A stretch of DNA of 64,000 nucleotides, taken from the NCBI RefSeq assembly GCF_000172635.2, contig NC_018632.1, positions 1,612,001-1,676,000 of the forward strand, given 5' to 3'. Both the position numbers and the translations under genes were made by a program. The notes beneath the pieces were generated by a model that did no database searches, was not told the DNA's origin, and worked only from the letters and a program-made list of their open reading frames with translations. Numbering within the stretch: the first letter of the stretch is position 1; each line of letters begins with the position of its first letter. Of this stretch, positions 1-39,579 are shown one piece after another. The DNA is from Alteromonas macleodii ATCC 27126 (lineage in GTDB: Bacteria; Pseudomonadota; Gammaproteobacteria; Enterobacterales; Alteromonadaceae).

Positions 1-40
1 TAAGCTGACTTTGGGTTAGCTTACGCTTCAAGAAATACTA

Positions 41-69
41 AAAAGCCGGTCGCATGACCGGCTTTTTTT
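41..69. terminator. Rho-independent terminator hairpin
   Basis: An 11-bp perfect stem (AAAAGCCGGTC / GACCGGCTTTT) with a GCAT loop is followed by a T run on the + strand and preceded by an A run, so it can act in both directions. It lies 29 bases past the cynS stop and probably ends the nirC-kinase-cynS transcript as well as any gene entering from the left. Confidence 0.85.
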
Positions 70-565: not shown

Positions 566-1360
566 TTAGTTAAACAAAATGAGCGTAACTAGATTGCTGA
601 AAATAAGTGCCAGTATTAGCACCTTGTACACAAAAAGAGGGTGTCGTTTTACTAACGGCTCGTACGCCGTATGTTGTGATGGATTTGGGTAGCGAAGCGA
701 AAAAAGAAACTCAGATAGTGAAGAAAATCGCTTATCAGGGTTCACATGCAAAGCACGCTTAAGGGCGCTATCAACCCAATTAGGTATTGGTCGATTAGGA
801 GCCAATGCGGTTTGGTATTTTAACTTTTTCTGCTCGGCCAACGTGCGACAATGAGCGAGCTTTGTGCCATAGGGGTAACGCCCGCACAAAAGATAGTAGG
901 TGAGTACGGCTAAGGAGAACAGATCAGAGCGCTCTGTGCCAACATTTCCTAAAAAGTATTCAGGTGCGGAAAAAAGTGCAGCGCCAGGAATAGGTGTGTC
1001 ACTATAGAGGCTTGGGGCATCGGCTAAGGCTGCTGAACCCAAATCTATAATAGTACAGTGCCCTTGTTCGCTAATAATAATATTGTCGGGGCGTATATCC
1101 CTATGAACAATGCCCTGACGGTGCATTGCCTGTAAACCTTTACCAACCTGCTCGATTATATTCCTAACTTGCTCTAATGGCGGCGTAGGATTATCAACAG
1201 CCCATTGAGCTAGCGTTTGACCTTGAATATATTCACTTACGCTGTAAAAAGAAGAAGGAGGGTACGGTAAACCCAAATCAGTAAACGTTGGGCTTTTAAT
1301 AACGTGTGCCGAATTAATCCGTCTCGAAAACCAGCTCTCTATTAGGAATCCATTTACCAT
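566..1360 (-). CDS. Kinase-domain fragment with C-terminal membrane anchor
   Basis: This 264-aa reading frame holds a protein kinase from helix C onwards: the helix-C Glu (FLIESW), hinge, catalytic loop VHRDIRPDNI, metal motif IIDLGS (DLG in place of DFG) and SAPEYF (APE). It ends with a hydrophobic segment (about residues 242-262) that would anchor it in the inner membrane. It lacks the glycine loop and the ATP-binding Lys, which lie in the upstream frame, so alone it could not be an active kinase. It overlaps the upstream frame by 7 bases. The apparent ATG start is probably an accident of the frameshift. Confidence 0.8.
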   Translation of the reverse strand: MVNGFLIESWFSRRINSAHVIKSPTFTDLGLPYPPSSFYSVSEYIQGQTLAQWAVDNPTPPLEQVRNIIEQVGKGLQAMHRQGIVHRDIRPDNIIISEQGHCTIIDLGSAALADAPSLYSDTPIPGAALFSAPEYFLGNVGTERSDLFSLAVLTYYLLCGRYPYGTKLAHCRTLAEQKKLKYQTALAPNRPIPNWVDSALKRALHVNPDKRFSSLSEFLFSLRYPNPSQHTAYEPLVKRHPLFVYKVLILALIFSNLVTLILFN

Positions 1361-2475
1361 TTCTGGTGATAGGGTAAAGTCGGTAGCCGGTGTTTTACAA
1401 CCACAGGGCTGTTTCTGTGCGTAGCTTCACAAGACGAATTGGTGGCAATAAAAACATGGCTTCGGGCCGACGTATAAAGCTGTCGTTCTAGCTTCAGTCC
1501 ATCAACATCATCACCCGTCTTAAAGTTTGCGGCAGCAGGCTCTTCGCATACATGTTCATCAGAATGCTGATTTGAGTAATGAATCGCAGCATCAGAAACC
1601 TCAGAATTGGTTATCAGTTGTTCGCCCAACGACCTGTTAAGTACAGATGAATGAGGTGAAGTTGAAACGCCTGTATACAGTGGGTGTCTGTGATCGTCTA
1701 GGCCATCATGGCTAGCTACAAGAACCTTTACGAGAAGTAAGGTGAGGTTGTCATCGCTTCCTCTAGTAAATGCCTCATGTACTACCAGCGCAGCTTGGTT
1801 TTCAGAAAGCGTATCGGCCTCACTGATTTTCATAAGAATGGTGGGTAGCGAAACAAACTCATAAACCCCGTCGCTACTTATCGAAAACGTGCTCGATGAG
1901 TTGAGGGTGAGTGTTGTGTGGTCGATGTCTATATTCGCTTTAACGCCTAATGCTTTAGTAAGATAACTCTGCGAAGGCTCACTTTCCGATACTTGACGAT
2001 GAGGTTTTGTGAGTAAGACAGGCGACTGTGCGTTCTTAGAAAGAACTTGAATTTGACAATCCCCCACATGAAATACATCCATGTGATTGCCTGTTACCAC
2101 TGCCACTGTTAACGTGCAAACATAACCTTTTTCTGGTGTATAGCAAAAGGGACTTCTTTGCGTACGTGTGTAAAGCAGCGCGTTTATCTCTTTAATAATG
2201 GTTTCAGCGCGCGTCTTAACCGACCATTGTTCCGGCGCCATATTAAACAGTTTAATAAACTGACTGGTAGCAAAGTCGCTAGCAACTTGGCTAACCGTAC
2301 TGCTACTTACACCGTCGGCGATAACAAAAACGCTGCTTTGATCTGGGTTATCAGAAACATGAAAAGCGTATGCATCTTGGTTTATCGCTTTAACGCCGGC
2401 TGTAGAAAATGCACTTACACTGAGCGTGTTAGCTGGTGGGTTAATTGGGGCGTTTAACGCGGCTCGCTCATTCAT
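1354..2475 (-). CDS. PP2C-type phosphatase fragment plus start of kinase N-lobe
   Basis: This 373-aa reading frame carries a complete PP2C (PPM) Ser/Thr phosphatase domain with its metal-binding acidic motifs: NQDAY, IADGVSS, HVGDCQ, SSDGVYE and SDDNLT. It would remove phosphate from Ser/Thr residues in the cytoplasm. The last 60 or so residues are not phosphatase but the beginning of a protein kinase fold, cut short by the frameshift. It may still be an active phosphatase if expressed. It lies 126 bases after nirC in the same direction. Confidence 0.85.
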   Translation of the reverse strand: MNERAALNAPINPPANTLSVSAFSTAGVKAINQDAYAFHVSDNPDQSSVFVIADGVSSSTVSQVASDFATSQFIKLFNMAPEQWSVKTRAETIIKEINALLYTRTQRSPFCYTPEKGYVCTLTVAVVTGNHMDVFHVGDCQIQVLSKNAQSPVLLTKPHRQVSESEPSQSYLTKALGVKANIDIDHTTLTLNSSSTFSISSDGVYEFVSLPTILMKISEADTLSENQAALVVHEAFTRGSDDNLTLLLVKVLVASHDGLDDHRHPLYTGVSTSPHSSVLNRSLGEQLITNSEVSDAAIHYSNQHSDEHVCEEPAAANFKTGDDVDGLKLERQLYTSARSHVFIATNSSCEATHRNSPVVVKHRLPTLPYHQKW

Positions 2476-3450: not shown

Positions 3451-3534
3451 GGTTTCACCTCACGTTGTCGTTATTAATAAGTTGTCATCTGTATGTTGGC
3501 GTTTACTGTTTCAATGCGTTCCAGAAGATCAAAA

Positions 3535-3644
3535 AAAGGCGTCCGCAGCGCTCTCGTAAGAAAGAACTGGGGACGCCTTTGTCCGAAACTCATGCATTGT
3601 GGTAGCTAACAAATAAACCGTCGGTTATATGTACGCCTTTGTAC
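3535..3644 (-). promoter_or_regulatory. Two-hexaloop ANTAR-type antitermination leader with terminator
   Basis: Read on the minus strand, the nirC leader contains two short hairpins with the same hexaloop AAAGGC: GTAC-loop-GTAC (3631-3644) and GGAC-loop-GTCC (3571-3584). A at loop position 1 and G at position 4 is the signature bound by ANTAR regulators such as NasR and NasT. The loop and 3' arm of the second hairpin form the 5' arm (AAAGGCGTCC) of a strong terminator whose 3' arm GGACGCC is followed by seven Ts (3531-3580). The second hairpin and the terminator are therefore mutually exclusive, as the mechanism requires. The linker between the hairpins is long (46 nt) and holds a small AACCG/CGGTT stem. 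The regulator gene is not in this window. Confidence 0.75.
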
Positions 3645-3711
3645 TCTGAAGCCCGTTGGCAACTAATACTTGTATAAGCGCCTTCGTACTTTTGTTATCC
3701 ATTTGTACAAA

Positions 3712-3727
3712 GCTAAAAAAGTGCCAA
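3712..3727 (-). promoter_or_regulatory. Candidate sigma-54 (-24/-12) promoter of nirC operon
   Basis: The minus strand reads TTGGCAC, five Ts, then TAGC. This is the -24/-12 pattern with GG and GC separated by exactly 10 bases and one mismatch (TAGC for TTGC). It would start transcription near 3700, upstream of the antitermination hairpins. Sigma-54 with NtrC is the usual control for nitrogen assimilation, which fits the operon content. It was found by eye only. Confidence 0.55.
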
Positions 3728-38583: not shown

Positions 38584-39579
38584 CTAATCAGGTTTCTCAT
38601 CGGGCGCGAGGTTTTCAGCATAGCCTTTCGGTGGTGGCGTCCAGCCACGCATTTTCGAATGCTTGTCGTGTAAATCTGCTTTTAGCGCATTTTCGATTAG
38701 CGACTCAAGTTCAATAAAGAGTTTCAAATAATTATTGTCTACTCGTTCTCCGCTGGCCTCATCCGCCCACGCGTGATACAGCACATCGTTTTGCTGAGCC
38801 TCAATATTTTTATACGCCATTTTTTGCCGTTCAACTTGGAAAGGGTGAATATTGAGTGAGCGAAGTGCCTCTGCGCCCATTTCAAGAGCGCTGTGGTACG
38901 TTTCTGATACCACAAAATCTGCACCCAACTGGCGCAAGCGATACCCATGACCGCGGTCAAAGGCACGCGCAAGCACTTTAATGTTAGGAAATGCGTGCTT
39001 GGCGTATTTCACCATTTCGGCAGCGGTTTCTTTATCGTCTATAGCAATAACTAGTAACGATGCTTCATGGGCGCCAGCAGTATGCAAAATGTCTGGTTTG
39101 GATGCATCGCCAAAATAGGCTTTGGTGCCAATCCGTCTGATAAGGTCTATTTGCTCAGAGCGAATATCAAGCACAACGGTATTTACATCGTTGGCCACTA
39201 AAAGACGGTTAATGATTTGTCCAAAGCGCCCAATTCCAGCAATAACGACGGTGCCTTTCTCGTCAATTTCATCTTCAGCTCGCTGTGATTTCGCGTTTTT
39301 GTAGCGAGGAATGATGGCCTTGTCGAAAAGAATAAAAAGTCCTGGTGTTAGGAACATTGAAATGGCAACAACAAGCGAGAGAACAGAAATAATGTCGCTG
39401 GGAAGCACATAGTTTTGCGAGGCAAAACTTAATAGCACAAAGCCAAATTCACCCGCCTGAGCAAGGCTTAATGTGAATAGCCATTTGTTAGTGCCTTTTA
39501 TTTTAAAAATTAAGGCGATGATAAACAGCACAATGGCTTTCACAAGCATAACAGCTACGGTTAGCCCTGCTATTAGCAT
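38584..39579 (-). CDS. Kef antiporter fragment: last helices and RCK domain
   Basis: Contains the last membrane helices of the antiporter, then the NAD-binding Rossmann domain (VIAGIGRFGQIINRLL) that senses glutathione or NAD(H) and gates transport, and a charged tail. As an independent protein it would lack the ion path. The ATG at 39579 is internal to the intact family protein. Confidence 0.75.
   Translation of the reverse strand: MLIAGLTVAVMLVKAIVLFIIALIFKIKGTNKWLFTLSLAQAGEFGFVLLSFASQNYVLPSDIISVLSLVVAISMFLTPGLFILFDKAIIPRYKNAKSQRAEDEIDEKGTVVIAGIGRFGQIINRLLVANDVNTVVLDIRSEQIDLIRRIGTKAYFGDASKPDILHTAGAHEASLLVIAIDDKETAAEMVKYAKHAFPNIKVLARAFDRGHGYRLRQLGADFVVSETYHSALEMGAEALRSLNIHPFQVERQKMAYKNIEAQQNDVLYHAWADEASGERVDNNYLKLFIELESLIENALKADLHDKHSKMRGWTPPPKGYAENLAPDEKPD

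Follow-up and report, generated by a model that had tools for sequence, protein, structure and literature searches.

Organization of the locus

The stretch of DNA analysed here, called the window, comprises 64,000 nt of Alteromonas macleodii ATCC 27126 (assembly GCF_000172635.2, contig NC_018632.1, positions 1,612,001-1,676,000 of the forward strand). On its minus strand, in the order of transcription, lie a sigma-54-type promoter, a hairpin (P1), a second hairpin (P2) that overlaps an intrinsic terminator, and genes coding for an FNT-family channel, a PP2C phosphatase, a protein kinase and the cyanase CynS (Table 1). We infer from the promoter motif that transcription would start near position 3700. 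An earlier note on this DNA, made from the letters alone, had described two AAAGGC hairpins, the second on the 5' arm of a terminator with seven T nucleotides, and a GG-N10-GC promoter pattern. All of these elements lie exactly where they had been placed, and the promoter pattern is kept in relatives.

Table 1. Positions of the leader elements and genes of the operon within the window.
Feature	Position	Strand	Details
Sigma-54-type promoter, TTGGCAC-N5-TAGCTTT, GG-N10-GC	3709..3727	-	GG 3725-3724, GC 3713-3712; score 21 of 23
Hairpin P1, gtac-AAAGGC-gtac, gtacAAAGGCgtac	3631..3644	-	4 pairs; loop with A1 and G4
Hairpin P2, ggac-AAAGGC-gtcc, ggacAAAGGCgtcc	3571..3584	-	ANTAR-type hexaloop; mutually exclusive with terminator
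Intrinsic terminator	3531..3580	-	5' arm AAAGGCGUCC 3580-3571; 3' arm GGACGCCUUU 3544-3535; seven T 3537-3531
FNT-family channel ("nirC" in the earlier note), 282 aa	2602..3450	-	Pfam PF01226
PP2C phosphatase part of PP2C-kinase protein	1354..2475	-	PF13672
Ser/Thr protein kinase part of PP2C-kinase protein	566..1360	-	PF00069; frame different from PP2C part
Cyanase cynS, 151 aa	98..553	-	PF02560 and TIGR00673 over cut-off; 12 nt downstream of kinase
Terminator-like hairpin 3' of cynS	40..67	-	12 pairs; from terminator scan

The phosphatase and kinase parts occupy a single open frame at 107 of 108 loci. The sole exception is the window copy, whose two frames may reflect a broken gene, slippage during translation or a sequencing error. 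Kinase matches returned by PADLOC were set aside as generic kinase similarity. Between the FNT and PP2C genes (2476-2601) is a hairpin, GCCATCATG/CATGATGGC, that carries no T tail and may act in mRNA processing or stability. The scan that yielded the hairpin downstream of cynS found 4 terminator-like sites against 3.8 in shuffled sequence, which is no excess. The leader terminator is absent from that same scan, presumably owing to an interruption in its stem and to the limit of 3-8 nucleotides set on loop size.

The P2 hexaloop and its terminator

The loop and 3' arm of P2 are the same nucleotides as the 5' arm of the terminator. The 136-nt stretch that includes both hairpins and the terminator (3660-3525) folds better than all of 200 shuffled versions (z -3.5). 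The arrangement resembles the EutV dual-hexaloop element which, in the available text of Ramesh et al. 2012 (PMC3369931), likewise consists of two hairpins with six-base A1/G4 loops and a P2 lying over a terminator. In the terms of that publication, the window hairpin has each attribute of a P2, including a stem of at least three pairs, an A1/G4 hexaloop, and overlap with a terminator arm.

We compared 110 leaders, composed of 80 named FNT loci, 29 loci from the genus and the window. Genus loci were available for 30 of the 46 FNT-bearing genus genomes, and the window's own copy (L102) was dropped from these. A script recognizes the terminator in 86 of the 110 leaders, and in 70 of these 86 an A1/G4 hexaloop with at least four pairs lies on the terminator 5' arm. 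These A1/G4 structures are found at 41 of the 80 named loci, at 28 of the 29 genus loci and in the window, and a sequence pattern finds P2 at 30 of 30 genus loci. None of the remaining 15 classes of loop positions 1 and 4 approaches this count of 70, as their totals range from 0 to 10. As background, the two strands of L021-L100 together have 1004 terminators, of which 95 bear an A1/G4 hexaloop, including the 41 leaders; within the window the figure is 9 of 122 with the leader counted in. The P2 called at L071 is AT-rich, comes from a genome lacking an ANTAR protein and is probably spurious. At L045 a P2 visible by eye was missed by the script.

Covariation was assessed by anchoring each leader on AANG and the terminator only. 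The P2 5' arm was left unused, and A1, A2 and G4 are thus fixed by construction. Anchors were obtained for 72 of 110 nirC, 30 of 30 nirB and 11 of 11 stand-alone cynS leaders, which reduce to 33 distinct 14-mers. Paired cells of the P2 stem number 110 of 132 (5' arms shuffled 1000 times: mean 81, maximum 95), even with some anchors that seem wrong (e.g. L024, L037, L045 and L092) still counted. The first three pairs are formed in 25 of the 33 14-mers (shuffled arms: mean 11.3, maximum 17). Because the P2 5' arm lies outside the main terminator stem, its pairing is largely independent evidence. Covariation across orthologous leaders, which the earlier note had proposed as a check, is therefore present for P2, while for P1 it extends to two pairs within one clade.

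The earlier note had also proposed a scan with the Rfam ANTAR covariance model. Scanned with Rfam, at the gathering threshold and by E-value, the leader has no match over a gathering score. The nearest models, P11 (RF00625; 19.3 bits, gathering score 70) and narK RNA (RF03032; 13 bits, gathering score 43.2), are far from their cut-offs. In each of the two consensus models a GACAAAG-type hairpin is aligned with P2, and there is also a promoter-like GGCAC stretch. The exact P2 12-mer, GAYAAMGRCGTC, occurs at four further sites in the genome, all within coding frames, which we took as chance occurrences. The 10-mer ACAAAGGCGT has 19 genome sites versus 7 for the reversed pattern, of which P1 and P2 were examined.

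Promoter and nitrogen status

The nasF leader of Klebsiella oxytoca has a sigma-54/NtrC start, and a sigma-54-type promoter, GG-N10-GC with flanks like TTGGCAC/TTGCT, precedes the hairpins of the window leader as well. On a scale of 23 with weights set by us, 54 of 63 distinct P2 leaders score at least 19 (shuffles: mean 1.0, maximum 4) and 62 of 63 score at least 17 (shuffles: mean 8.6, maximum 14). Of 61 leaders, 27 have an NtrC-like site with at most three mismatches located 78-135 bases 5' of the promoter (shuffles: mean 0.4, maximum 2). The window has no such site upstream of its promoter, where the best candidate in 575 bases has 5 mismatches. All 7 matches within three mismatches in the whole window lie beyond position 38900. 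The claim that nitrogen status controls the operon is thus favored by the promoter and by the NtrC-like sites of relatives, but it finds no such site upstream in the window itself.

The P1 hairpin and its linker

The P1 hairpin has a folding energy of -3.3 kcal/mol on its own and is missing from the minimum-energy folds of the window leader. For the nine leaders of the window's clade, the only structures that RNAalifold predicts are P1 and the terminator. In these leaders 96.3% of the P1 stem cells are paired, and at two pairs both partners have changed. Taking P1 and terminator together, 2 of 500 shuffles attain the covariation score, but 136 of 500 attain two double-changed pairs. The A1/G4 identity of the P1 loop is present in six of nine clade leaders (shuffles 1.7, maximum 5) and gone in L103, L108 and L109.

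P1 and P2 are separated by 46 nt in the window, by 44-54 nt across the clade and by 44-53 nt in those clade members with an A1/G4 loop. A closer P1 (A1/G4, at least four pairs, at most 35 nt from P2) is found in none of the nine clade leaders. The window hairpin nevertheless fits the P1 definition of Ramesh et al. 2012, with an upstream stem of at least three pairs, an A1/G4 hexaloop and a variable linker. It departs from the short-linker rule that emerges from functional work on EutV, a rule that the published search definition does not contain.

A usable promoter is present in 62 leaders overall, and in 22 of them an A1/G4 hairpin of at least four pairs lies on the stretch from promoter to P2 (shuffles 5.0, maximum 13). 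When the leaders are divided by type of ANTAR protein, with the ambiguous L029, L083 and L112 excluded, such a P1 is present in 9 of 17 leaders from genomes with a short, NasT-size protein (shuffles 0.9, maximum 3). Among nirC leaders from NasR-only genomes outside the clade it occurs in 6 of 33 (shuffles 1.9, maximum 5), leaving 27 without one. Only 3 of 26 distinct nirB leaders have it (shuffles 3.9, maximum 8). At L094, which adjoins a nasR gene, about 20 nt separate the inferred start from P2, and in the nirB leader L164 a P1 of the classical kind lies at a distance of six bases from P2.

A single NIT-ANTAR protein

The genome (4.65 Mb, one contig) contains one ANTAR-family match over the Pfam cut-off. 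The protein of 465 aa carries NIT and ANTAR domains (PF08376, 164.7 bits; PF03861, 59.1 bits). It aligns in two stretches to K. oxytoca NasR (4akk, E 5e-37), which is its sole solved relative at E <=0.001. Thus, two features of NasR are present, namely the two domains in one protein and resemblance to the solved structure, and the search for an ANTAR protein suggested by the earlier note has a positive outcome. The nasR gene adjoins a nitrate locus whose genes follow within about 10 kb. From their sequences, we take these genes to code for a SulP-type transporter, NirB, NirD, an assimilatory nitrate reductase and a uroporphyrinogen methyltransferase.

Among 59 genomes of the genus, FNT is found in 46, ANTAR in 46 and nirB in 47. 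FNT and ANTAR are discordant only in G012, which has ANTAR and nirB but no FNT, and in G053, an assembly of 590 contigs with 7% contamination that has FNT and a piece of nirB but no ANTAR. In 23 of the 45 genus genomes with both, nasR lies divergently beside FNT, with about 1.6-1.7 kb between the start of FNT and the ANTAR-coding end of nasR. The same divergent layout occurs at 19 of 80 named loci, and a NasR-like match is present anywhere in the flanks at 24 of 80. The nasR gene next to FNT at L029 gives a match in two parts, the ANTAR portion lying in a 65-aa open frame, and is possibly interrupted.

In a sample of 196 genomes from the family, ANTAR proteins occur in 39 of 41 genomes with FNT and in 56 of 155 others, and among the named genomes they occur in 40 of 41 with a scripted P2 and in 29 of 39 without, although the genomes are related and their counts therefore not independent, such that we attach no probability to them. 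The single P2 bearer among the named genomes that lacks an ANTAR protein is the spurious match described above. The 29 P2-less FNT loci in ANTAR-bearing genomes also indicate that an ANTAR protein is not always accompanied by this leader.

Leaders of nirB and cynS

Leaders of nirB were compared for 30 of the 47 genus genomes with a match, including the window's own genome. In all 30, ggc-AANGRA-gcc, whose stem has just three pairs, lies on the terminator arm. Each also has a promoter-like site that reaches 17-20 of 23, a score given without a shuffle baseline. The genome's own nirB (G000:C1:626600-629242; L138:12480-12690) has a leader with TTGGCACTGAACTTGGATA and with ggc-AACGAA-gcc on the terminator arm, and on this sequence pattern it is likely to be a second NasR target. 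Genes for FNT, PP2C-kinase and NirB form one operon run at eight named P2 loci. At L024-L030 and L037, nasR lies in divergent orientation next to a run of FNT, PP2C-kinase and nirB. The operon in the window may have arisen when part of a nitrate operon like these moved and acquired cynS.

The earlier note remarked that cyanase under ANTAR control would be notable, and the case is now stronger than the one it made. Of the 59 genus genomes, 40 carry cynS, and every one of these belongs to the 46 with FNT. It lies within about 3.3 kb of FNT in 29 and elsewhere in 11. Each of these 11 stand-alone genes (L174-L184) has its own promoter, P2 and terminator. The P2 forms include gagc-AAAGAC-gctc, ggat-AAAGGC-gtcc, gggc-AAAGGC-gccc and variants. 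Of the 29 linked cynS genes, 22 leaders were read, including those of the window and of L034 (the same as G051 by coordinates), and P2 is present in all 22. Among the named loci, cynS is located downstream in the operon at 25 of 80, with a scripted P2 at 19 of the 25. The gene follows the kinase in 20 cases and lies between FNT and PP2C in 5 (L042, L046, L047, L060 and L086). With two placements and separate leaders, cyanase resembles a member of the regulon more than a gene merely carried along, and it looks like a gene of the predicted NasR regulon. Several of the stand-alone leaders also show, by eye, a hairpin without an A1/G4 hexaloop directly against P2. RNAalifold, applied to the eleven leaders, does not call this abutting hairpin.

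A different arrangement is seen at nine loci elsewhere in the family (L186-L191, L193, L194 and L212), for which 30 of 38 cynS matches were compared. Here cynS comes first and FNT follows. A TTGGCA..GC promoter-like site can be seen by eye in 9 of 9. P2 is called in 0 of 9 within 320 bases upstream, using a script for an AANG loop and four pairs that may miss a P2, as at the stand-alone cynS L203, where aggc-ATCGAG-gcct is visible on a terminator arm. These loci are apparently cyanate operons without ANTAR control. The nine P2-less operons in other genera suggest that ANTAR control of cyanase is lineage-specific.

Proposed mechanism and alternatives

We consider it very probable that the leader is a NasR-type antiterminator acting ahead of the genes for FNT, PP2C-kinase and CynS. 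The model builds on a promoter motif, a P2 with covariation and terminator overlap, one NasR-like protein in the genome, and the same predicted device at nirB and stand-alone cynS, all of which are covered by sequence and comparison. As judged from what is known of its family, the sigma-54 promoter, with NtrC-like sites upstream in relatives, would fire when nitrogen is short. Without nitrate or nitrite, the transcript would form the terminator and stop ahead of FNT. With either ion present, the single NIT-ANTAR protein would presumably bind the P2 hexaloop through A1 and G4. A P2 held in this way would occupy the terminator 5' arm and should permit readthrough into FNT, PP2C-kinase and cynS. 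Any part played by P1 would be additional conjecture. The sense of such a circuit would be to turn on cyanate use together with nitrate and nitrite assimilation. The core of the earlier note, a NasR-type antiterminator and sigma-54 promoter before a cyanase operon, is therefore supported at the level of sequence.

The main question within this model is whether NasR needs both hairpins, with the 46-nt linker bridged by folding or by the timing of transcription. The identical AAAGGC loops, the P1 stem kept throughout the clade and called unprompted by RNAalifold, and the excess of A1/G4 loops over shuffles both in the clade and overall speak for this canonical arrangement. So does work on nasF of K. 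oxytoca, whose P1 loop requires its A1 and G4 (PMC3369936, in part). The published ANTAR models from 2012, with both hexaloops bound together, and from 2022, with sequential binding, agree that antitermination needs two hexaloops. A EutV dimer touches one hexaloop at once, and still each hexaloop is required, according to the available text of PMC8934654. However, the P1 seen here is distant and mostly absent in relatives, three of the nine clade leaders have lost its A1 or G4, few NasR-only nirC leaders outside the clade and few nirB leaders have one, and the two double-changed pairs are readily reproduced by shuffling. The linker also exceeds tested limits. Those of the Enterococcus faecalis eut genes span 5-12 nt, and a linker of 14 nt strongly lowered induction (PMC3369931, in part), while adding 20 nt abolished antitermination (PMC8934654, in part). 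We therefore regard a requirement for both hairpins as a possibility of some substance, though one we doubt. The double hexaloop of the earlier note stands as far as the conserved P2 is concerned, whereas the A1/G4 P1 found here is bound to the clade and its linker is outside the EutV working range. Either the clade P1 acts from afar or many NasR leaders use P2 alone, and for most leaders we lean toward the latter. The P1-poor form may be a variant of the known mechanism, and it makes the two-hexaloop requirement directly testable.

Other explanations dispense with NasR or with regulation by an ANTAR protein altogether. The terminator might simply limit expression or end a short RNA, and it is true that P11, a small RNA in Rfam, aligns to the promoter, P2 and terminator. 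Its score is a fraction of the gathering value, however, and a plain attenuator would not account for a P2 5' arm that lies outside the main terminator stem and yet keeps its pairing with the 3' arm while the two arms vary in sequence, for the dominance of the A1/G4 class or for the co-occurrence of the leader with ANTAR genes, which makes this reading very unlikely. A NasT-type regulator (receiver-ANTAR) could be considered since the same P2 is present in orthologous leaders of genomes with short ANTAR proteins, but with the one ANTAR match of this genome residing in a NIT-ANTAR protein, the idea is scarcely credible. The notion that the hexaloop is a chance by-product of terminator composition has the four coding-frame copies of the P2 12-mer in its favor. 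It is refuted among orthologues by the 70 of 86 leaders in a single loop class, and we give it a negligible probability.

Relation to known systems

The regulator of K. oxytoca nasF is likewise a NIT-ANTAR protein acting on an A1/G4 hexaloop over a terminator (PMC3369936, in part). That operon serves nitrate assimilation, with no cyanase mentioned in the available portion of the paper, whereas the Alteromonas leader precedes a cyanase operon. Within the literature collection searched, nothing relevant on cyanase under ANTAR, antitermination or NasR control came up. The main text of PMC3369931 has no word starting with cyan, nor nirC or Alteromonas, although its supplementary tables might still list an example. 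Thus, the mechanism is known and the target set including cyanase appears to be new.

Cyanate is a nitrogen source that is used in the sea. If cyanase is switched by a nitrate sensor, then cyanate use would follow nitrate or nitrite and low-nitrogen signals rather than cyanate sensing alone. This, if true, would change how cynS expression in marine surveys is read.

The FNT channel

The earlier note labeled the channel gene nirC. Its product is an FNT-family protein by Pfam, and the NCBIfam scores are closer to FocA than to NirC (fnt 144.5, FocA 128.8, NirC 47.6 bits, all under cut-offs). The best solved chain is LCIA (9v2a, E 2e-25), a chloroplast FNT protein for bicarbonate and nitrite. Possible substrates, as judged from sequence, are nitrite, cyanate or both. 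In the family sample, cynS is present in 37 of 196 genomes, and 37 of 37 are among the 41 with FNT. Because cynS occurs only where FNT occurs, the channel could serve mainly cyanate, or could feed bicarbonate to cyanase. A broader proposal joins this role to action of NasR through P2 alone in Alteromonas and relatives, with a second A1/G4 hexaloop dispensable, the upstream hairpin free to vary, and a regulon that joins nitrate, nitrite and cyanate. In its entirety this proposal is speculative and, in our view, unlikely. One cynS match, G023:C1:1661328-1661510, covers profile positions 8-68 in a 69-aa open frame and is possibly an interrupted cyanase.
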